IMG/VR virus record: IMGVR_UViG_3300036768_000940
Coordinates: 1-21,023 of that record
Length of the DNA: 21,023 bases
Reading direction: 5' to 3' (one strand)
From: a virus
Shown: positions 1,549 to 13,485 of the stretch, piece by piece
How positions within the stretch are numbered: position 1 is the stretch's first letter
Layout: each line of letters opens with the position of its first letter
Notes under the pieces: generated by a model
Told to the model about the DNA's origin: nothing
The model's database searches: none
Seen by the model: the letters and a program-made list of their open reading frames with translations, nothing else
Made by a program: the position numbers and the translations under genes

Positions 1549-2094
1549 TTATGCTTGTTGTGCTTTTTTAGCCTCTCGTGCTTTTTGAATCTCAAGTGCT
1601 TTAGTAGCTACACTAGAAGGAATTTCCGAAAACACTTTACGAACTTGAACTTCAAATTGAGCTGTTTTTCCAGCAATCTCTTTAGCACCATAATCTTCAG
1701 GAAACTTCACATCAAAAACCTTAACTTCACCTACACGCATTCCTAACAGATTTTGCTGAAAATCGCTTAAAAACTGATGGACTTCCATATCAACGAAAAC
1801 TCCAATCCCTTCTCCACCTTCAAAGTTGTCACCAAGGGTTCCGTCTTCATTTTTCAAAGTGCCCACGAAATCAATATATAAAAGGCTTTTGTTAGTAACT
1901 ACCCCATTAGGATCATCTCGCATGATTGACATTGAAGCAAGATTCGAAGTTTCAAGTTTTAAGTTTCGTATTTGTTGATTCGTAACTACTGCCAAGCCTT
2001 GAATCATTTTAATTGCGTTTTCAGCTCGGTCTCCTACTTGCTCTTGTAATTCACGTTTAGTCATTTGCTTTCTATTTTTAAAGCCACCTGCCAT
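1549..2094 (-). CDS. Trigger-factor-like FKBP-type peptidyl-prolyl isomerase
   Basis: Residues about 72-155 of this 181-residue protein match the isomerase domain of trigger factor. The visible features are a strand LLYIDFVGTL, then DNFEGGEG, then FQQNLLGMRVGE and VKVFDVKFPEDYGAKEIAGK, ending in QFEVQVRKV. The family's core (FEGG, GF/FQ..L.GM..GE, FPEDYGA..LAGK, F.V.V..V) is kept in order. The ribosome-binding and large C-terminal chaperone domains of full trigger factor (about 430 residues) are absent. Instead there is a 70-residue helical N-terminus and a short lysine/alanine-rich helical tail. Such domains catalyse cis-trans isomerisation at proline and assist folding. It lies between the minor head side and the ClpP-like protease, where scaffolding genes often sit, so a role in head protein folding is plausible but inferred. 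The RBS GGAGAGG precedes the ATG. Confidence 0.8.
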   Translation of the reverse strand: MAGGFKNRKQMTKRELQEQVGDRAENAIKMIQGLAVVTNQQIRNLKLETSNLASMSIMRDDPNGVVTNKSLLYIDFVGTLKNEDGTLGDNFEGGEGIGVFVDMEVHQFLSDFQQNLLGMRVGEVKVFDVKFPEDYGAKEIAGKTAQFEVQVRKVFSEIPSSVATKALEIQKAREAKKAQQA

Positions 2095-2708: not shown

Positions 2709-3536
2709 CTATTTGGGATCTTCTTCGCCTGGAAGAAGGTAGTGAAGCTGGCAGCGACAACGAGGATGAGTAGATCCGATTACAGGCTTCCATTCATTTT
2801 TAGGCTTACCGTCATTTGAGCCGTTATCTAGCAACTCTTCAAGGGTATAAACTTTAGGCGTACCATCTTTATTTTGGTAGAAGCTGGAACACCAAGCACA
2901 AAGCCTATCGTCATTTATAACTCTCTTATAAACTCTAATGACTTTACTGGGTAAAAATCCTGTTTTACTGCGCGCCTCATCAATAGCGGCATTATTTATA
3001 AGGTTCGTTAAAGCTACCGTAGCACCTCTGGTGAAATTACTCGTGACGGTATAAATGGCAGCACCAACCATCACCATAAAGTCTTTAAGCATTTTTTCTT
3101 TTTTAGCAGCTTCGGCTTCGGCATTTTTAATCTTATCTAAACGAGCCTCATCATTAAGCCTTAAAATTCCTTGGCGAATTCTCTTTTTAAGTTCTTCTTT
3201 GGAATTTTGAATAGCATCATACATTTGACGCTTAGCTTGTTCTATGCTATAAGCTTCCACATCACTAGCAATCGCAAGAGCAGATGATAAACCAGCTAAG
3301 GCTATTAAGTCCCTAAGAGAAACATTCTTACGACCCGCTTCACTACTACGATGTCTGGCAATTAAATATAAACTTTCAATTAAAGGACGATTGATTTCAA
3401 CTAACCCAGCAGCCGTGGCTTTACGTTTATCTTCCTCAGATAAAACCGAATAACCAACCATCATGATCAGAAATGATAAATAAGCCTCGTCAATAGCTTG
3501 ATCTATCCTATCCTGAAATTTTTGTTCTAAAAACAT
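2709..3536 (-). CDS. Minor head protein, SPP1 gp7 / Mu gpF-like
   Basis: This 275-residue protein ends in the hallmark of the phage head morphogenesis family: RLCAWCSSFY at 211-220, a spacer with YTLEELL, then GSTHPRCRCQLHYL at 254-267. The Cys213/Cys216 and His257/Cys260/Cys262 set probably binds a metal. The N-terminal 200 residues are mostly helical, as in the family. Members of this family sit with the portal, are packaged in a few copies per virion and help head assembly and DNA ejection. The position downstream of the portal fits. Its ATG overlaps the end of the 3508-3741 gene by 29 bases and has a weak ribosome binding site, which suggests coupled translation. Confidence 0.85.
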   Translation of the reverse strand: MFLEQKFQDRIDQAIDEAYLSFLIMMVGYSVLSEEDKRKATAAGLVEINRPLIESLYLIARHRSSEAGRKNVSLRDLIALAGLSSALAIASDVEAYSIEQAKRQMYDAIQNSKEELKKRIRQGILRLNDEARLDKIKNAEAEAAKKEKMLKDFMVMVGAAIYTVTSNFTRGATVALTNLINNAAIDEARSKTGFLPSKVIRVYKRVINDDRLCAWCSSFYQNKDGTPKVYTLEELLDNGSNDGKPKNEWKPVIGSTHPRCRCQLHYLLPGEEDPK

Positions 3537-3741
3537 CTTCTGCTACACCCTTTATGGAATTTGTTATTTCTTGCATCATATCGTCAAATCTTTGGCATAT
3601 AAGGTCATGAGCTTTATTCATGGCATCGTCAGCATAACGCTCGCCATGATCGCACTCCGACTTAGCCTTTAGAGCTTTTTCCATAAACTCTTCGGCATCT
3701 AATAATGTTTCGCCTTTATCAAGTTCAACTTTAATTCTCAT
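3508..3741 (-). CDS. Small helical protein of unknown function between homing endonuclease and minor head genes
   Basis: The 77-residue protein starts with a beta-like MRIKVELDKGETLL and continues as charged amphipathic helix. It has no recognised motif. Its ATG overlaps the stop of the homing endonuclease gene (ATGA) and its 3' end overlaps the minor head gene, so all three should be on one transcript. Before the endonuclease arrived it would have followed the portal gene directly. It could be a small portal- or head-associated protein, but this rests on location alone. Confidence 0.7.
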   Translation of the reverse strand: MRIKVELDKGETLLDAEEFMEKALKAKSECDHGERYADDAMNKAHDLICQRFDDMMQEITNSIKGVAEDVFRTKISG

Positions 3742-4943
3742 TCCCGCTCCAAAACAAATTTTAAATTACCAGTACCATACACTTTAAGAGCATTCTCAAA
3801 CTTATCATTGCCCCAAGAAGCTCTTCGGTTATATAGCTTCCCGTTTAATAACCAATCAAAGTCGACGCTAGTCATTCCAACATACCTAAAACCAGCTTTT
3901 CGATAAATATCTCCGTTCGAATAACGAGCATTAGCATAGCTAATTATATTACTACTTGATAGCTTTAGTCCAGCCTTCAATAATTTACTAAATCCCCCAA
4001 CCACTTGATACCCGAGCTTAGTACAAAACCTCGCAATCTCTAAACCTTCTTTATGATTTCTAAAAGTAATTAAAGCAACTAACTCACTCTCATTATATAA
4101 ACCTAAAGCTACGATTGAAGGTGTATAGCCTTGGAGATGGTTAGCATTTAGAAAGTCTTTTTCGCTAGATTTGTCTACAGACTTTACGCTCAAATTCCTA
4201 GCAAACAGCTTCTTATCAAACGATCCTAACTTAGCTCGGATCATGCTCAAAACTATAGCACGTTTAAATTCATATTCTCCCGCCCAAAATTGCAATAACG
4301 TATAGCCTCGCTCCTTAGCCAATTGGTATTTTTTACGATGGTAGTATTTATCTCTAAACTTTGAGGAATGCCAATACTCTCCGTTAAGCTCTACAGCGAT
4401 ATTACCAATTACAAAATCCAATTCTAAATGAGAACCTTGAATCTTCACATTACGTTTAATTTGCGGGGTTATCCCTAATAAATCTTTATAAAAAGCCTCT
4501 TCTAAACTAGACCTAGGAGCGCACATTGGGCAAACAGGGGATTGAAGGAAATTGTTCGTATTGCGCTCGAATTTATGCCCTTTACTACACCTATAAACTC
4601 TGGCACGACCATTAATTTTAGAAACAACTTCAATACCCAAACCAAGACTTTTAACAGTTAGAGCATGTCGGTCTACGATGTTGGAATTTACAATTTTACC
4701 GACGGTGTTTTCGTTAACACCCGTGATCTTGGAAATTTGTCTATTGGTTAATCCCTTAGCATTAAGTTCTAAAATCTGCTCACGATTTACAACGGAGTGT
4801 TTTGCTTTAGTTTCAAGGCCGTTTTTCTTAAGAAAGTTGCGGACCGCCGTAAAACTTACGCCTAACGATTTGGCCATCCTTTCCATGGACAAGCCGTCGT
4901 TTAAAAGCTTTATGACTTCTTCTTTACGGGAATCCAACAACAT
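3738..4943 (-). CDS. Free-standing Vsr-like (EDxHD-type) homing endonuclease
   Basis: The 401-residue protein has two N-terminal helix-turn-helix-like units (about 8-42 and 55-87, with LSMERMAKSLGVS and LTNRQISKITGV). A probable zinc finger follows (Cys119, His123, Cys138, Cys141). Then comes a Vsr/restriction-type nuclease core at about 145-225: SSLEEAFYKDLLG, LELDFVIGNIAVELNGEYWH, H202, and TLLQFWAGEYE. The C-terminal 160 residues are the domain that often follows this core in phage homing enzymes (LITFRNHKEGLEIARFC, ISYANARYSNGDIYRKAGF). Such enzymes cut a conserved gene in a related genome and spread by repair. It starts 2 bases after the portal stop and overlaps the next ATG by 4 bases. 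That is a clean insertion in the head operon, with only a weak ribosome binding site. Confidence 0.8.
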   Translation of the reverse strand: MLLDSRKEEVIKLLNDGLSMERMAKSLGVSFTAVRNFLKKNGLETKAKHSVVNREQILELNAKGLTNRQISKITGVNENTVGKIVNSNIVDRHALTVKSLGLGIEVVSKINGRARVYRCSKGHKFERNTNNFLQSPVCPMCAPRSSLEEAFYKDLLGITPQIKRNVKIQGSHLELDFVIGNIAVELNGEYWHSSKFRDKYYHRKKYQLAKERGYTLLQFWAGEYEFKRAIVLSMIRAKLGSFDKKLFARNLSVKSVDKSSEKDFLNANHLQGYTPSIVALGLYNESELVALITFRNHKEGLEIARFCTKLGYQVVGGFSKLLKAGLKLSSSNIISYANARYSNGDIYRKAGFRYVGMTSVDFDWLLNGKLYNRRASWGNDKFENALKVYGTGNLKFVLERE

Positions 4944-4945
4944 TT

Positions 4946-6763
4946 TTAATCCGAGATATAGTACTCAATGATTGACTTTTTAGCTTCTTTAGGCTCTTCT
5001 TCCTTGCTGTCGTCTTTTACATCACTATCTTCATCTTTTGTATCCTTATCTTTCTCATCAGCATCTGAGTCATCAATCTCGTCCATAAGTTTATCTAATT
5101 CATCGCTAATTGGATCTTTACCTCCTTCAGCTCCACTAGGAGCACCTTGATCCGTAGGTGCACCGCCATCAACAGGGCCTGGTTGTGCAACTTGAGCTTG
5201 CTTTTGGGCTAGATATTGAGAGTAAATAGCATTAAGAACTATGTTACCATTCTCAATCGGTTCCTTACCCATTTCGATTCGAGCTTCATTAATGGTTTTC
5301 CAAATTCTAGTTTCTTTTTCGAGTCGATCCACTTCTTGTTGTCTTGTTTCAGCATCAAGACCAACAAATTCAAAATAATATTTTTTCGCATATTCAGGGT
5401 TCCATCTAGGAAGTATCTGATTGTTGATGATGTTTTGGATATAATCTAGTAAAGGCTTAAGACCTTTATCACGACTAGCTTTAATACGAGTTTCGTTAGA
5501 AGTCTCGTTTAAAGTTGAAGTATTAACTTTACTAATGTCAAAGTTAATTTCCGCAGGGTCGATCTGGTATACCGCACAGCAAATACGAATTAGGTAGTTC
5601 ATCCACTGCTCAAATTCCATTTCCCTATTAGATTGAGCAAGCGGAACCCACCTAACTTCGTCTGCCATACCAATAACAGGCGGCCTAAATGAGTTACGAG
5701 TATTAGAGATTTGGCTAAACCATTGACGCTTAAACCCCTCAAGCTGTGCTCGGGAAATATTATCACCTTTGATGTGCAGCAAACCTTTAGAACCTATACC
5801 TTGAACGAAAAAGTTACGGTTATGCGCTTCAGCGTAAAGGTGCGCAGTAATAATTTGAACGAGCAGCTCAAGTTCTCCTATAGCGTAGCCATTATCTTCA
5901 GGATCTACTGAAGGGTTAGCTGGCTCAAATACGAACCAATCCTCTGACCAAGCGGCAATAACTTGACCTCTAACAACCTGAACATACCTATAAGGTTTGT
6001 CAGTTTTTCTCATGGCCTCAGCAGGAGAAATACCACGAGCAATCATGTTTTCCACCATCAACTTTTGAAGTTGTTCTGCCGAACGCTTAGTAGCGTACTT
6101 TATAGTGCCTGCGGAAACGGGATAAAAATGATGGCATCGTTCACCGTTTCTTTGGGGGATTAATTCAATTGCGACGTAGTTATAAGTTAAACGGTCACGA
6201 GTAATGATTTTTAAAAACTTATCAAAATCCATCCGCTTCTGAGTAGTATCGGACTCCTCAACGGGCATACCGCAGTGCTTAATAAACTCTTCGATTTCCG
6301 CGATTTCTTTTTGCTGTTGTTTTTTAAGTTCTATTCGCTTCTTTTCAAACTCGTATTTTTTCTTTTCGTACTCTTCTTCTGAGAGACTTGGATCAGCGAG
6401 TTGAAGTTTTTCGTCTTCGCTTAAGTCTGCTGGCTCATTAGCCACAATCACCCAGCCTGGTGAGTATCTATTTTTTTGTCGTTTACTAAACATTGATACT
6501 TGGGCGATACGAGTTTGATGTATGGCAATAACAACTGAGTCCCTTCGAGCCATTGCTCTAAGCGCAGCATTACCAATACTACTAGTTTTTTCTTTCCAAC
6601 TATATTGCTCATTACCAGCATAATCAAGCTCAGTTATAGCCAAACGATTTGCGGTGTCAGTAGCTTGAGGAGCTGGATCTATATTTGATCGAGCTTTAAC
6701 GATATAAGAATCTAAACCAGCGTTAATAGCCTCTGCGATTTTATCTATAATTCCTTTTGCCAT
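4946..6763 (-). CDS. Portal protein
   Basis: The 605-residue protein forms the dodecameric channel at the capsid vertex through which the terminase pumps DNA. Support comes from length, from position directly after the large terminase, and from family-like segments. These include the stretch from GLLHIKGDNISRAQLEGFK to RPPVIGMADEVRWVPLAQSN (about 310-360), then EFEQWMNYLIRICCAVYQIDPAEI, the helical NETSNETRIKASRDKGLKPLL, and the late WKTINEARIEMGKEPI motif typical of SPP1/HK97-type portals. A long charged helix at 115-155 precedes the core. The C-terminus, after about 525, is a Gln/Pro/Gly linker and a very acidic Asp/Glu/Lys tail of about 60 residues, probably disordered. AGAGG precedes the ATG. 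Confidence 0.88.
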   Translation of the reverse strand: MAKGIIDKIAEAINAGLDSYIVKARSNIDPAPQATDTANRLAITELDYAGNEQYSWKEKTSSIGNAALRAMARRDSVVIAIHQTRIAQVSMFSKRQKNRYSPGWVIVANEPADLSEDEKLQLADPSLSEEEYEKKKYEFEKKRIELKKQQQKEIAEIEEFIKHCGMPVEESDTTQKRMDFDKFLKIITRDRLTYNYVAIELIPQRNGERCHHFYPVSAGTIKYATKRSAEQLQKLMVENMIARGISPAEAMRKTDKPYRYVQVVRGQVIAAWSEDWFVFEPANPSVDPEDNGYAIGELELLVQIITAHLYAEAHNRNFFVQGIGSKGLLHIKGDNISRAQLEGFKRQWFSQISNTRNSFRPPVIGMADEVRWVPLAQSNREMEFEQWMNYLIRICCAVYQIDPAEINFDISKVNTSTLNETSNETRIKASRDKGLKPLLDYIQNIINNQILPRWNPEYAKKYYFEFVGLDAETRQQEVDRLEKETRIWKTINEARIEMGKEPIENGNIVLNAIYSQYLAQKQAQVAQPGPVDGGAPTDQGAPSGAEGGKDPISDELDKLMDEIDDSDADEKDKDTKDEDSDVKDDSKEEEPKEAKKSIIEYYISD

Positions 6764-6775
6764 CTTTAACCTCTT

Positions 6776-8557
6776 TTAGAAAATAAACCAAAACCCACCA
6801 TCATCGTCATCGCCCTCATTAACTTTATTGCCTCCCTCATCATATTCTGCCCTATTATCATAGAATTGTTCAACCCCCGCTACTTGAGCCATATCCTCAG
6901 CGGTAGGCATGGCAATAAAACGCCCTAATTCGTCTCTAGTTTTGATAGTCGTAGTTTCATCACCTTCATCAGTATACCCGATATAGATGGGGCTTGTCTT
7001 GTCAAACTGATAACAAATTAAAGCTACGACCTGGGCTAGGTCATCATGACATCCTGGAGCGTGTTGAATTTGAATTTTACCACTTTGTGTTCGTTTTTCC
7101 CTCAAGTCTTTTAAGTGCTTAATTAATAAGGAATTATCCACCAAAGCCAAAGTCTTAGAGTTAATATTGATCTGCATGGAGTACATATACTTAAGCTTAG
7201 ACTGCTGAGCTACTTTAAACTCTTTAACTTGAACCCCTTCTTGTTGCATCAAAGCCTTAACGGAAGCAAAGGCATACTGATCCGCTATACAGTAAGGGAC
7301 TCGATACCTTTTCATTTCCGTGGCTATTAAAGGGATGATTTTCGCTGGGTCTAGTTCTTGTCCTGGTAGTCCCCGCCAGCTTAAAATTTTATCAACGACG
7401 ATTTTAGACCGCTTCTCTTTCGCATCACGATCCCAATAATACTCTTTATGTCCTATACCAAATCCCCAGTAATCATTCTTAGTGGCATAATCCATAACAG
7501 CTACATAACGGTATTTAGGATTATAAGGCAGCTCGTCAATACCTGGCATTCTAGCTTCGTCAATCAAATTAGGATCCAAATAAGAAACTTCCGAGGCCGT
7601 ATACTGCGCTCCATACTCCCTGTTAAAGAACGAAATACCCTTTTTCTTTTGCTTTTCAAGATACTTGACTGGAATTGTAGGATTTGCATACCAACTAGGA
7701 ATTTGAAGGTGTAGGATATCGGGATCTTTGCTGTTCTCAAAATCACCAAACATAAGACCTGATTGGCCGTTAGGGGAAGAAATCTTAAGGATCAAAGCCA
7801 TACCGTCGACTTGTTGGAACTGTGCAAGAGCGGGGGATAAGGCTTCGTAAATGGCGGTATCGGTGTTTTTAGCATCAGTACCGTCCATAACACCCATAAA
7901 ACAAGCCTCGTCCATAATAGCAAAAGGAACCGCCATACCCCGAAGTTTGGAAATATCAGCAGCAATAACCTTAATAACAACTTTGTTGTTTAACCTAATA
8001 TGACCGCCGATTAAAGCGTCCTTCTTACCAATCTTATCCTCATCATATTCGTCCTGGAAATTATCAATTCTACCATCCAAAAACTCATCGAACAAATAAG
8101 TAGACCTTAACATCATGTTCTTAATGGCCGCGTAAATTTCCCCAGCTTGCTCTTTAGTAGGAGAAACAATCGGTATAGTAGCGTGTGGTGAAGTTCCAAG
8201 ATAAGGAGTATAGTCGAACTGAGTAGCGAAATAAACAGCAATACCCGCACCAATAGTAGTAGACTTACCAGAACGACGGCCCCAAGCTAAAGACACATCC
8301 GAATATATAGTAGGCTCGTAATAATCTTTGCCCGAAAAAAACTTAAACATCTCAACTTCGTTGGCAAATCCCCTTTCTTGAAACTCATGCGAAATGGGAA
8401 TCGGGGTTGTTTCGTCCAAGGGCTCACCTTGAATAGCTTTCAAAGTCATCTTTTGAGCGGGGGATAAATTCTTAATCCCCAAAGTAGCTTCCCATTCAAA
8501 AAACTCAAGTAAAGAAAGGCCGAGCTTAGTTGGTGGCCTGGTTACTTTCTTTGACAA
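6776..8557 (-). CDS. terL: Terminase large subunit (ATPase and nuclease)
   Basis: This 593-residue DNA packaging motor has all the expected motifs in order. Walker A is LAWGRRSGKST at 90-100, Walker B is FAIMDEA with Asp216/Glu217, and the coupling motif is KISSPNG at 258-264. The RNase H-like nuclease acidic residues are Asp356 in VAVMDYATKND, Asp426 in YCIADQYA and Asp505/506 in CHDDLAQVVAL. It hydrolyses ATP to push DNA through the portal and cuts concatemers into genome lengths. The start is a TTG placed about 3 bases after GGGGG. No ATG in this frame lies upstream of it, and MSKK gives a normal N-terminus. The C-terminus is Asp/Gly-rich. It follows the small terminase by 14 bases. Confidence 0.95.
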   Translation of the reverse strand: MSKKVTRPPTKLGLSLLEFFEWEATLGIKNLSPAQKMTLKAIQGEPLDETTPIPISHEFQERGFANEVEMFKFFSGKDYYEPTIYSDVSLAWGRRSGKSTTIGAGIAVYFATQFDYTPYLGTSPHATIPIVSPTKEQAGEIYAAIKNMMLRSTYLFDEFLDGRIDNFQDEYDEDKIGKKDALIGGHIRLNNKVVIKVIAADISKLRGMAVPFAIMDEACFMGVMDGTDAKNTDTAIYEALSPALAQFQQVDGMALILKISSPNGQSGLMFGDFENSKDPDILHLQIPSWYANPTIPVKYLEKQKKKGISFFNREYGAQYTASEVSYLDPNLIDEARMPGIDELPYNPKYRYVAVMDYATKNDYWGFGIGHKEYYWDRDAKEKRSKIVVDKILSWRGLPGQELDPAKIIPLIATEMKRYRVPYCIADQYAFASVKALMQQEGVQVKEFKVAQQSKLKYMYSMQININSKTLALVDNSLLIKHLKDLREKRTQSGKIQIQHAPGCHDDLAQVVALICYQFDKTSPIYIGYTDEGDETTTIKTRDELGRFIAMPTAEDMAQVAGVEQFYDNRAEYDEGGNKVNEGDDDDGGFWFIF

Positions 8558-8571
8558 ATTACCCCCATATA

Positions 8572-9177
8572 TTAAGACTGTGATTTTTTACTGTAAGTCG
8601 CATTTACGACGTCTTTAATTAAAGCCTTTTGATCGTAATCAGGATTTAGTTTTTTTGTTTCTAAATGAATTTTTGCCAAGGCTGCGTAGTCTATTTTCTC
8701 TGTTACGTTTCTAGTAACCGTTTCGGACTTAGTTCGCTCAACTCCACCATTAGCAGCGAAGTAATGTAATTTGGTGAGTTTTTCTACCGCCTCAGTTAAA
8801 ATTTTTAATGGCACGGGAGAACCTTGCTCTTCCCCATCAAACACATAACGCTCAAAATCCAAAACTAATTTGTAAGTCACTTTTAAAAGTTTGGCGTAAG
8901 TTTCTTTGGCTATATCCTCAATCTCAGACCGCTCGAGTTTCTGTTTTTCCTCAAGCTCTTTGGCTCTACGTTCGTCCCACTTAAGCTCTTTGCGGTATTT
9001 ACCAACGGTCTTGTCAGACAAATTGAACTTTTCGGCAATCGAAGTTAAAGTTTTACCCCTACGATACTCCTGATACATCTGCTCTAAATCAAAATCGCTC
9101 GGGCGATATTGTTTAGTAGGTATTTCCGAAACAGGATTGGGGGCGTATTCTTGTATCCCTTTTGGCTTTCTTGACAT
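8572..9177 (-). CDS. terS: Terminase small subunit (DNA recognition)
   Basis: I chose the ATG at 9177 (MSRKPKG) over an upstream GTG because GGAG lies 5 bases before the ATG. The 201-residue protein has a helix-turn-helix at about 30-60 (LEQMYQEYRRGKTLTSIAEKF, then LSDKTVGKYRKELKW) and a long helical oligomerisation region. It ends in a shorter C-terminal part (IDYAALAKIHLETKKLNPDY) that would contact the large subunit. Small terminases bind the packaging start site and load the large subunit. The identification rests on the DNA-binding domain, the size and the place immediately before the large subunit; sequences of this family are very diverse. Confidence 0.8.
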   Translation of the reverse strand: MSRKPKGIQEYAPNPVSEIPTKQYRPSDFDLEQMYQEYRRGKTLTSIAEKFNLSDKTVGKYRKELKWDERRAKELEEKQKLERSEIEDIAKETYAKLLKVTYKLVLDFERYVFDGEEQGSPVPLKILTEAVEKLTKLHYFAANGGVERTKSETVTRNVTEKIDYAALAKIHLETKKLNPDYDQKALIKDVVNATYSKKSQS

Positions 9178-9197
9178 ATTCACTCCAATTTCACCAT

Positions 9198-9215: not shown

Positions 9216-9764
9216 TCATTTAGCTGATGCTACGTGCCTGTCTATGGCTTGGAAAATCTTGTTTAATTGCTTCTCGTAAATACGTCTTAACTCGGGTTTA
9301 TTGGAATGATATCTAGTAAACCAGTTTAAATCGGTACTTTCGTATCGCTGTTTATAGGTTTTAAGGACTTTTACGGAAATATGAACACTATACCTAACGT
9401 CCGATATCATCCTTTCACGATCTATATTAAAGTGCTCACCCCAAACACTAAATCTAACTTGCCCTAAACCGTAGTCTTCACACTCATTTTCACGGCAGTT
9501 TTGGGGGTCTAACCTTAACGAAGACTCCTTAAAAAATATCGCCGTAACCAAACGCCAATCAATTCCCGCTTCACTCGTTTCTTTGTGTATCGCCTTTGCC
9601 ATCTCCAGACTCAAGCTCTGATTGAGCTTTGGTTGGAGCTTCAACAGGGTTGATTGTATTATGATTTCCTGTGGCACTGGCTTGCGTGAATACTCCAGAT
9701 AGTTCGGTGTAATCTGACTCGGAATGAAAATCAGACTTATTAGAAACATTAACTGGTGTATCAT
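9216..9764 (-). CDS. Secreted lytic transglycosylase (SLT-type), probable lysis or entry enzyme
   Basis: I chose the ATG at 9764 (MIHQLMFLISLIFIPS) because AAAGGAG precedes it by about 6 bases; an upstream GTG would put that site inside the gene. The 182-residue product has an N-terminal hydrophobic segment (2-16) like a signal sequence or anchor, without a lipobox cysteine. The catalytic region is goose-type/SLT: IDWRLVTAIFFKESS with likely acid Glu80, DYGLGQVR at 97-104, and RYHSN at 151-155 in the place of the usual Tyr-containing motif. It would cleave peptidoglycan between MurNAc and GlcNAc. Its first 65 codons overlap the end of the upstream gene in another frame. Because it lies beside the terminase genes it could also be virion-associated. 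Confidence 0.75.
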   Translation of the reverse strand: MIHQLMFLISLIFIPSQITPNYLEYSRKPVPQEIIIQSTLLKLQPKLNQSLSLEMAKAIHKETSEAGIDWRLVTAIFFKESSLRLDPQNCRENECEDYGLGQVRFSVWGEHFNIDRERMISDVRYSVHISVKVLKTYKQRYESTDLNWFTRYHSNKPELRRIYEKQLNKIFQAIDRHVASAK

Positions 9765-10113
9765 GGTTCGCTCCTTTCTTACCACGCCAACGCCTCAACT
9801 CGACTGATAGTTGATAAGTTGGCAGGTATTCTTGTAACCAATCAAATAGGGAATCAATAAACTTATCCCTTTTCCCTAACAAAATCATTAATAAAATGCT
9901 CCAAATCGAGCAATACACCCTCATATATAACTTTTGTTCGGTACGATCAATATCAATTTCTACATTCCGTACTTGGGGGAAATTAATGTAGGTAGAGACT
10001 ATGATGGTATTAATGGAAAAATCCGAAATAATACCCTGCTTACGAAGCCAATCATCCCCAGCAGCTAAGGCGTGTCTTATCATTTCTTTATCTTCAATAT
10101 TATTGAGTTTCAT
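9571..10113 (-). CDS. Unknown protein with central hydrophobic segment, 3' end overlaps the transglycosylase gene
   Basis: The 180-residue protein has an ordered N-terminal half (DWLRKQGIISDFSINTIIVS), a hydrophobic stretch VYCSIWSILLMILLG at about 70-84 that may be a membrane segment, and a short amphipathic part. The C-terminal tail of about 70 residues is polar and low in complexity (Ser, Thr, Asn, Asp). This tail is encoded in the 194 bases shared with the transglycosylase gene, in a different frame. No strong ribosome binding site precedes the ATG, but a promoter -10 ends 7 bases upstream. It could be a membrane partner in lysis (holin- or spanin-like), but I do not recognise a family and the topology is not diagnostic. 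Confidence 0.6.
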   Translation of the reverse strand: MKLNNIEDKEMIRHALAAGDDWLRKQGIISDFSINTIIVSTYINFPQVRNVEIDIDRTEQKLYMRVYCSIWSILLMILLGKRDKFIDSLFDWLQEYLPTYQLSVELRRWRGKKGANHDTPVNVSNKSDFHSESDYTELSGVFTQASATGNHNTINPVEAPTKAQSELESGDGKGDTQRNE

Positions 10114-10929: not shown

Positions 10930-13485
10930 TTAAACACCACAAACACCACCTACACACTCTGCTTCTTTTTCCTCGAACACAACACCTTCATTAGCAAGAG
11001 CTTCGTCCAAAGACACTGCAGTCAAAGGCTGACCTCCACGACATCCATCAGGATATACCGTAAAGCCTCGAAGTCTCTTAGCGTATTTTAAAAGTATCAT
11101 AGCGTTTTGCTCGAGTGTCTCTTCGTTGTTTTTTTCTGATCCCCAAGCTGGCATGTTGCAGGTAGATGAAATAGACATATCAACATACTGCTGTACATCA
11201 GCTTGGAACTTCACTCGCTCTTTAAAAGAAATATCATAAGAGTCTTGGATATGTTCTAGTTTAACTCCTTGCTCAAGAAGTCGTTTCACTGCTCCATCAA
11301 CGACGTATTGATACATCCATTTACCCTCTTTGTAATAACGACGTTTATACGCCTTACAGAACAAAGGCTCAATACCAGTAGTAGTTTCTGCTAGGATACC
11401 GATGGTACCTGTTGGGGCAATGGCCCTAACACCTTTTGGCACTGCAACTCCTAATTGCTTAGCACCTACAAATGCAGAAGCATCTGATTCCCTCTCATAA
11501 GTAGCAAGCCATTGATGCAACTCAGGAACACATTGATACTTATACCCTCTAAGCATTAGCCATTCGTGTATACCACCAAGACCTAAACCAATTCTATTAT
11601 TCTTTAAACCTACCTCTTTAATTTTTTCAGTAGGCACATCGGAGTAAATACCACCACATAACAAAAATAAGGTTCCGTATTTTACGACTTCTCGGAATTC
11701 TTCTCGGTCCTTACAACGATTCATCCATACGGTTCCTAAGTTACACTTATCAGAATCATCTTCAGAAACTACCTCAGTACAAGCGTTTCTTAAAGATTCA
11801 GCATCTCGTCTGAAGTTAAAAGCCATACCAGGCTCTGCGGTTGAGAATGCTTGACGACAGTTCTCAAGCCATATTTGCTTTGCTTTTGCGTGATCAGGAT
11901 GATTTTCGTCTTCAATAGCTATGAAGAAGTTAGTATCATAGATCACTGAAATATTAGTAAATTCCATTGGGAGTCTGAAGTTTAAATCTTTCTCCTTCAT
12001 GGCTTTAAGTTCTGGGGAATGATCTTTTAAATGGATAAACTCCATAACATCTTTATGATCCCAGCTCAAACCTGCCCATATAGCGGACCTACGTTGACCG
12101 CCTTGCATGATGTGTCTACCAGTTTCGTTAACCATTTCCATTAAAGCTAAAGGTCCTGTACAAAACCCTCCAGTACGTTTAATTGGAGTTCCTTTGGGAC
12201 GAACAGCAGAATAATCCACCCCAATACCACCGCCAGTAAGAAGTGCGGCACACGCCTTACTCATAAGATCCGCCCAACCTTCTCGAGTATCTTCTGCTCT
12301 GAATAAGAAACAGTTAGAAGTTAAAACTCCATTGGCCAACATGAAAGTATGAGTTTTCGGCGCAACTACACAATAAACCTTTGCTTGATGTGACGGCTGT
12401 ACATCCACTACATCTAAGTACATTTCCCTTTTATAAAAATTTCTATCTTTCATGTTCTCTTGATGATGAGGCAGAATAATCGGAGCAGAAAAAGGCTCGA
12501 TATGGATGAAGCATAGCTCTCGAGAAACACCGTCATAAGGACTGACTTTAGATTTTACTTCAATGGAACTAACTACACAACCTCCAGCAACAGCTATTTC
12601 TCGAAGTTTTTTTGCACGCTCCATTCCTTCGCAAGTAAGTAAAACTGAGCCACCTAAAGAAGCATGACCATCAGTAGCTATAAGGCCTGCTATAAATCCC
12701 CGTGCATATTCTGGAGTATAAACCTCGGGAATTTCTTTATAACGCTCTGGTTGAAATCCTATCTCCATACCAACTTTTGTCTTTCTAACAGTTTGGTATT
12801 TTTGTTTAGTATCAAATCCCACCTCAATTTCTTTGTTTTCAAAATAAGATGCTAAAACTTCCTTTTTTGGATTTACGATGACAATTTCGGTATAGCCTGT
12901 TTTTGGGTTTTTATAACCGTCACCGAAAATTATTCCATGTCGAATACCTTCTGGATCTAGTGCGATAGAAGTATCCCCTTGAGTTAACATTACGCGTTTT
13001 ACTTCTTTAGTAGTAACTCTGGAGCCATCAGGTTGTATCCACAAGTGATCTTCTGTAGTAAGAAACTCATCTCCATTGGATAAAGTCATTTTATACAAAG
13101 TCTGAACCCCAAATTCTCGGACTTCTGCTTGTTCCCATTCTCCCTTCCAGTTCTTAACTTCGACTTGCTGTCCGACTTTGTCCTTCAAAGAAAATACGCC
13201 AGTTTTAGTAACGAATCTAGTATCACCATCAAAACAATTGTTCACTTGGTGAAAGGGACGACCAGCAGAGTATAAATAACGCCCGCCTGGGATGAATTTA
13301 CGTTCCTTCATGAATTTAAGGATCTTAGCTTTGGCTTTGGCGTCAAGAAGCTGCCCACAAACGGCGTTGACCACACGCTCACAGGTATCATGCCAAGTCT
13401 CAGTACCATTCATTGAGTACTTTTGCATGAAAATATCGTAGGCGAATTTGTTTGAAAACACGTCGTAACTCTGTTTTTCTGACAC
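10930..13485 (-). CDS. nrdJ: Class II (adenosylcobalamin-dependent) ribonucleotide reductase containing an intein
   Basis: The 851-residue precursor makes deoxyribonucleotides for phage DNA synthesis. Removing the intein (residues 84-391) leaves a 543-residue enzyme, which is short for the family and has no ATP-cone. Class features are GGGIGVDYSAVRP at 418-430, GGQRRSAIWAGLSWDH, the radical site NACTE with Cys569 and Glu571, CNLGTV with Cys581, and PTGTIGILAETTTGIEPLF. The active-site redox pair is Cys392 (first residue after the intein) and Cys581. A CX4C pair (844, 849) at the C-terminus would shuttle electrons. No NrdB-type small subunit is present nearby, as expected for class II. Start is a GTG 7 bases after AAGGAGG. 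It follows the RuvC-like gene by 21 bases. Confidence 0.9.
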   Translation of the reverse strand: MSEKQSYDVFSNKFAYDIFMQKYSMNGTETWHDTCERVVNAVCGQLLDAKAKAKILKFMKERKFIPGGRYLYSAGRPFHQVNNCFDGDTRFVTKTGVFSLKDKVGQQVEVKNWKGEWEQAEVREFGVQTLYKMTLSNGDEFLTTEDHLWIQPDGSRVTTKEVKRVMLTQGDTSIALDPEGIRHGIIFGDGYKNPKTGYTEIVIVNPKKEVLASYFENKEIEVGFDTKQKYQTVRKTKVGMEIGFQPERYKEIPEVYTPEYARGFIAGLIATDGHASLGGSVLLTCEGMERAKKLREIAVAGGCVVSSIEVKSKVSPYDGVSRELCFIHIEPFSAPIILPHHQENMKDRNFYKREMYLDVVDVQPSHQAKVYCVVAPKTHTFMLANGVLTSNCFLFRAEDTREGWADLMSKACAALLTGGGIGVDYSAVRPKGTPIKRTGGFCTGPLALMEMVNETGRHIMQGGQRRSAIWAGLSWDHKDVMEFIHLKDHSPELKAMKEKDLNFRLPMEFTNISVIYDTNFFIAIEDENHPDHAKAKQIWLENCRQAFSTAEPGMAFNFRRDAESLRNACTEVVSEDDSDKCNLGTVWMNRCKDREEFREVVKYGTLFLLCGGIYSDVPTEKIKEVGLKNNRIGLGLGGIHEWLMLRGYKYQCVPELHQWLATYERESDASAFVGAKQLGVAVPKGVRAIAPTGTIGILAETTTGIEPLFCKAYKRRYYKEGKWMYQYVVDGAVKRLLEQGVKLEHIQDSYDISFKERVKFQADVQQYVDMSISSTCNMPAWGSEKNNEETLEQNAMILLKYAKRLRGFTVYPDGCRGGQPLTAVSLDEALANEGVVFEEKEAECVGGVCGV
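12313..13236 (-). mobile_element. Intein with LAGLIDADG-type homing endonuclease inside the reductase
   Basis: The in-frame 308-residue insert starts at Cys84 (CFDGDTRFVTKTG, block A) and has block B LTTEDHLWI (Thr144, His147). Two degenerate LAGLIDADG motifs follow: RHGIIFGDGY (Asp189) and GFIAGLIATDGH (Asp272). It ends with blocks F and G, VYCVVAPKTHTFMLANG then VLTSN, with terminal Asn391 followed by Cys392 of the host protein. Splicing would join VNN to CFLFRAED. Cys1, terminal Asn and Cys+1 are all present, so it should splice by the standard route. The penultimate residue is Ser390 instead of the common His, a variation known in some active inteins. Both LAGLIDADG acidic residues are kept, so the endonuclease may be active. 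Confidence 0.92.

Follow-up and report, generated by a model that had tools for sequence, protein, structure and literature searches.

What does a prolyl isomerase of the trigger-factor type do in a phage genome, and is it tied to the building of the head? This question is raised by an open reading frame in a viral sequence of 21,023 nt (IMG/VR record IMGVR_UViG_3300036768_000940, positions 1 to 21,023), which is called the window here and is a fragment that ends before any major capsid protein (MCP) gene. The reading frame occupies positions 1549-2094 on the minus strand. It encodes 181 aa from an ATG start, and a Shine-Dalgarno sequence, AAGGAG, lies upstream. Over these positions the plus strand is broken by stops. 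Sequence and predicted fold both mark the product as an FKBP, referred to below as the isomerase.

The peptidyl-prolyl isomerase (PPIase) domain was assigned from sequence and fold to approximately residues 61-158 (positions 1621-1914, minus strand). The NCBIfam tig profile TIGR00115 matched residues 65-155 with an E-value of 3.9e-19; the score against the full-length equivalog, 68.8 bits, was well under its cut-off of 180.2. The Pfam profile FKBP_C (PF00254) gave 38.3 bits and passed its cut-off of 21.1, which was also passed by the isomerases of four large relatives. PDB entry 1l1p, the PPIase domain of Escherichia coli trigger factor, was matched at 5.6e-10, and the top matches of the domain were trigger factors throughout. 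An AlphaFold model, computed as a monomer from an alignment of seven family members, reached a pLDDT of about 74-91 in the PPIase-domain block. Superposition on E. coli trigger factor (1w26) gave a VIA Z of 14.7 at 1.4 Å over 95 residues, and many other FKBPs gave values of 10-12. A search of a viral structure library returned no match to the model at E<=0.001, which still leaves room for viral FKBPs. The ribosome-binding domain that forms the N-terminus of trigger factor (PF05697) was absent from the isomerase in the Pfam search and from the contigs of five relatives. No Pfam match was obtained to the C-terminal substrate-binding or arm domain, and about 23 residues extend beyond the PPIase domain. 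Profile matches and predicted model together confirm the product as a trigger-factor-type PPIase domain without ribosome-binding and arm domains. A sequence-only reading of this DNA had noticed the match to the trigger factor isomerase domain and the lack of the ribosome-binding domain, and had named structure prediction as a check; the prediction returned an FKBP fold, and both the domain match and the missing ribosome-binding domain were borne out. Bacterial contamination of the window was considered and rejected, because the isomerase gene sits among phage genes and is kept in other phage contigs.

The same reading had noticed new helical ends, and these were recovered in the model. At the N-terminus, a helix is predicted for residues 13-57 (positions 1924-2058, minus strand), where it would replace the ribosome-binding domain. 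Although model confidence is low here, the segment of about 45 residues has an amphipathic periodicity in all seven copies tested (shuffle p <0.001 to 0.06). This one long helix may be the counterpart of the dimerisation helices of Mip- and FkpA-type proteins. It is among the best-conserved stretches of the isomerase in close relatives. A second predicted helix covers residues 161-180 at the C-terminus. The N-terminus carries a GF[K/R]..TK motif, of which GF is present in 9/9 isomerase sequences. The three most divergent sequences have GFR (RKGFRQ/V) and the window copy reads GFKNRK. Comparison of the N-terminal segment with known phage families gave nothing convincing in PHROGs and no match by tblastn.

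We then considered the active site, using E. coli trigger factor numbering. In the alignment, the window isomerase keeps F168, F177, E178, F198, Y221 and F233, and carries the substitutions I195L, P196S, G197D and H222G. All five close members, which form the subclade of the window, have L[S/G]DF in place of the IPGF segment. In the divergent members this loop reads IPGF (L017 and L018), VPGF (L028) or IAGF (L020). In trigger factor itself, the backbone NH of I195 is key, and nearby proline substitutions cost most of the activity, while I195L has a smaller effect than these (PMC6166725). Judging from the alignment, the family as a whole is likely to have PPIase activity, whereas for the subclade of the window this is uncertain. 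Retention of the trigger factor loop in divergent members suggests that the ancestral protein was catalytic.

Relatives were gathered by IMG/VR scans with the isomerase and the portal protein. The contigs are fragments or of uncertain completeness, and the nine full isomerase sequences come, every one, from uncultured phages. The genes of the window named in the following lie on the minus strand. A probable terminase small subunit (8572-9183; match under the curated cut-off) and the terminase large subunit (6776-8557) precede an SPO1-like portal gene (4946-6763). After the portal follow p77, a small conserved reading frame (3508-3741), and a putative minor head gene (2709-3536) with a weak Phage_min_cap2 match and homologues in Herelleviridae and Bacteroides phages. 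Directly upstream of the isomerase lies p168 (2112-2618), with a helical N-terminus and a weakly supported SH3/KOW-like C-terminal barrel (best Z 7.1), the fold search suggesting no function. A ClpP-like serine protease of 201 aa begins 9 nt downstream of the isomerase (934-1539). It is followed by the small conserved frame p86 (677-937) and a trypsin/HtrA-like protease (1-669) that has a hydrophobic segment at its N-terminus and whose gene is truncated where the window ends. The order portal, p77, putative minor head, p168, isomerase, ClpP-like, p80-100 (p86 in the window) and trypsin/HtrA-like is conserved. In 8/8 other contigs spanning the site (L002, L003, L004, L009, L017, L018, L020 and L028) the isomerase follows directly after p168, which also precedes it in a ninth contig, L005, that stops within the isomerase gene. 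The synteny survey for which the sequence-only reading had called thus found the gene in every relative that spans the site, plus one truncated copy. The gap between the two genes was 11-27 nt in the copies measured, and the Shine-Dalgarno sequence, AGGAG, is purine-rich. The pair is intact even where a homing endonuclease stands after the portal or an antisense island before p168.

Several further features of this region were recorded. The homing-endonuclease-like frame of the window (3738-4943, minus strand) lies directly after the portal; L003/L012 and L014 carry copies of 82-83% identity at this position, and L002, L004 and L009 have none. Several relatives have an antisense gene island between the minor head gene and p168, as at L004:2417-7368. 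By eye, its genes are DNA-ligase-like, macro-domain-like and phosphoesterase-like; the corresponding gap in the window is just 90 nt. A vitamin-B12-type ribonucleotide reductase gene (10930-13485, minus strand) holds an intein-like insert at residues ~85-389; in L016 the gene is free of this insert. In L011, an insert of about 1 kb (7294-8339) splits the terminase large subunit gene at codon 96. Two conserved genes on the minus strand, 9216-9785 and 9571-10113, share 215 nt that are read in different frames. Relatives show this overlap too, and one of the pair looks transglycosylase/lysozyme-like by eye.

The nearest matches of the portal in the phage-record collection were SPO1-like Herelleviridae with 35-37% identity. 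By their genes, the window and its relatives are SPO1-like uncultured phages, of about 110-118 kb where long contigs exist. FKBP_C was searched in the whole genomes of four phages that have some head genes in common with them (SPO1, Lysinibacillus phage LysYB1, Bacteroides phage DAC16 and Chryseobacterium phage MA9V-3), and none was found. Bacterial genome contigs scanned with the portal and the isomerase yielded no relative and hence no host assignment. A GroEL gene was present in 5/5 large relatives searched, for example at L023:4663-6312; the 21-kb window, itself a fragment, has none. Among the tblastn matches in the phage collection (H1-H23), several that are UNVERIFIED or human faecal clones look bacterial and carry tig, and H15 is annotated tig-clpP-clpX.

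The isomerase had been described as lying inside the head module, at a place where a scaffolding gene is often found. An HK97-type MCP search was negative, and an SPO1-type MCP was then found in the large relatives. Four of these, with 110-118 kb (G001, G005, G006 and G007), carry the MCP (phrog_752, E 4e-72 to 2e-77) and a head protease (phrog_1028) next to each other and away from the isomerase. In contig coordinates, the distance is ~33 kb in G001, 74 kb in G005, 41 kb in G006 and 78 kb in G007. Circular permutation of the genomes, if present, would bring the values for G005 and G007 down to roughly 32-37 kb. The head protease beside the MCP is a protein separate from the ClpP-like neighbour of the isomerase, which may nevertheless have a part in the head. 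In SPO1, the scaffold gene 3.3 lies between protease and MCP, and G001 has a scaffold-sized frame of 298 aa, without family match, at this very position. Since the cassette lies elsewhere and in G001 has its own scaffold-sized frame, the isomerase does not take the place of the scaffold, and this assignment was rejected, although the window itself ends before the MCP. Of the head-module claim, the location after the portal and putative minor head gene stands, but protease and MCP are elsewhere in the four large relatives. At some 33-78 kb in contig coordinates from these genes, the place of the isomerase gives no reason to infer a role specific to the capsid.

The history of the gene was followed together with that of its neighbour. 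Comparison of the window with four close relatives (L002/L009/L012/L016) gave a dN/dS of ~0.07 at 73-77% identity. Values were similar for portal and TerL and higher for the genes of the minor head protein, p168 and the trypsin-like protease. As dS approaches or has reached saturation, all these ratios are rough. The isomerase gene is under strong purifying selection. The phage isomerase domains grouped in a single clade (support 0.84) that excluded the nine trigger-factor sequences, as would be expected if the PPIase domain was acquired once, long ago. In 8/8 relatives the ClpP-like gene comes next after the isomerase, in single copy and usually overlapping or within 15 nt, and its alignment shows Ser/His/Asp motifs. 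However, two non-orthologous ClpP-like types fill this slot in one phage clade, apparently by gene replacement in place. While the isomerases of the window and the four close relatives are 73-77% identical, their ClpPs share 28-31%; against L028, the isomerase is 36% and the ClpP 49.5% identical. The window has its ClpP type in common with L028, and the second type is that of the other relatives. The phage ClpPs show no clear grouping with bacterial ClpP or with the head proteases sampled. Capture of a host tig-clpP pair, which has the same order in the bacterial operon, was therefore rejected: the two histories are discordant and the phage ClpPs stand apart from bacterial ClpP. ClpP was exchanged independently of the isomerase, so the two were not simply kept as a captured pair.

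These data allow several readings besides a folding helper. The isomerase could be a substrate adaptor that captures unfolded or specific proteins, such as assembly failures or host proteins, and hands them to the ClpP-like peptidase. The constant neighbour with its catalytic motifs and the trypsin/HtrA-like protease next in line would fit, as would the finding that a ClpX/ClpA/ClpB-type C-terminal domain, searched as a single AAA+ family, was not found in five contigs. Yet ClpX of the host may act with the phage ClpP, and the isomerase tolerates two distant ClpP types; the discordance makes a tightly co-evolved adaptor-protease interface less likely, and we regard an adaptor as unlikely. A structural protein of the virion or its assembly is in our judgement similarly improbable. 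Here the FKBP fold would act as a peptide-binding module, for instance at the portal/neck or with the minor head protein, and catalysis would be dispensable in the window subclade. The invariant place behind portal, minor head and p168, the conservation of the N-terminal helix in close relatives and the L[S/G]DF loop of all five close members are consistent with this. Those same members nevertheless retain the aromatic pocket and the acidic residue, divergent members retain the trigger factor loop expected of a catalytic ancestor, and the isomerase matches no known virion protein family.

Still less can be said for a ribosome-docked mini trigger factor, in which GF[R/K]...TK would be a remnant or mimic of the trigger factor GFRxGKxP loop and the protein would fold nascent late proteins at the exit tunnel. 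GF is invariant and GFR occurs in the three most divergent sequences, and the ribosome loop was the lone match when the N-terminal segment was aligned to trigger factors by hhalign. But this match was not significant (P 0.059, probability 0.9%) and the loop assignment was rejected; nothing else of the ribosome-binding domain is present, and the window copy reads GFKNRK. We consider such docking very unlikely. A scaffold that had taken up an isomerase fold, as the sequence-only reading had also suggested, would suit the helical termini and the place downstream of the portal. Gene order speaks against it, given the separate phrog_1028/phrog_752 cassette in four large relatives and the scaffold-sized frame within it, ~33 kb off, in G001; this reading is hardly credible.

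The best reading is a dedicated helper, based on the trigger-factor-type FKBP fold, the purifying selection, the invariant place among packaging genes and the GroEL of the same genomes. That the isomerase stands beside portal genes in every relative examined suggests that these phages supply their own folding helper, and GroEL in all large relatives searched, together with the packaging-gene neighbourhood, hints at virion proteins as clients. We give about an even chance to a late foldase/holdase for virion proteins, a trigger-factor-derived PPIase that dimerises via its N-terminal helix and works with the phage GroEL. The isomerase would be made late along with portal, minor head and p168, a timing that is assumed from the types of gene that make up the cluster. 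By analogy with Mip, FkpA and FKBP22, it would dimerise through the N-terminal helix, bind virion proteins in their non-native state and catalyse prolyl isomerisation as it holds them. It may cooperate with the phage GroEL, as their co-occurrence suggests, and the neighbouring ClpP-like and HtrA-like proteases may clear failed products. The altered IPGF, the low confidence of the N-terminal helix and the two proteases directly downstream count against a foldase, and the two proteases make proteolysis or quality control a plausible context as well. Of the earlier proposal of a dedicated isomerase or folding helper for capsid assembly, the phage-borne helper survives as the best reading; the capsid-specific link finds no support in the gene position. 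A wider version, in which an SPO1-like lineage has its own proteostasis set of stand-alone trigger factor isomerase with a new targeting helix, GroEL, ClpP-like and HtrA-like proteases, and in which the isomerase is a foldase needed for virion assembly off the ribosome, is put forward tentatively, as a possibility against which we lean.

Compared with bacterial trigger factor (Tig), the phage protein belongs to the same PPIase subfamily, with 32-49% identity over the domain, the same predicted fold and most pocket residues; it differs by the lack of ribosome-binding and arm domains, the new N-terminal helix and the IPGF altered in the window subclade. In the way it may work it resembles Mip/FkpA/FKBP22-type FKBPs, which likewise have a long N-terminal helix and then a C-terminal FKBP domain, but its PPIase domain is of the trigger factor type and no separate alpha1-alpha2 dimerisation domain is predicted. 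SIB1 FKBP22, with long helix and FKBP domain, forms a V-shaped dimer that cradles non-native protein clients (PMC3179164). In the bacterial tig-clpP-clpX operon, a ClpP-type gene comes after the gene with the trigger-factor-type domain, as in the phage, where clpX is missing from the cluster and ClpP was exchanged. In SPO1, the portal is ~36% identical and the protease and MCP families are shared with the relatives of the window, but portal, protease, scaffold and MCP are contiguous and FKBP_C has no match, unlike in these relatives. FKBPs have been described in phages before: in bS21-encoding Bacteroidetes phages, an FKBP-type isomerase is reported to belong, like the MCP, to the 100 genes with the highest transcription (PMC9723584). 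As that report describes them, these phages transcribe the isomerase with late genes and have Clp protease and chaperone genes in their genomes; from this description they appear to be a different lineage (PMC9723584).

Proline isomerisation is a slow step of protein folding. The small isomerase suits the question which virion proteins require isomerisation, and would be a natural case of a trigger factor PPIase domain working without the ribosome-binding domain. It is established that phages provide chaperonins and co-chaperonins. If the reading as a folding helper is true, they would also supply proline isomerisation, through a trigger-factor-derived isomerase without ribosome domain that is fixed beside the portal genes.
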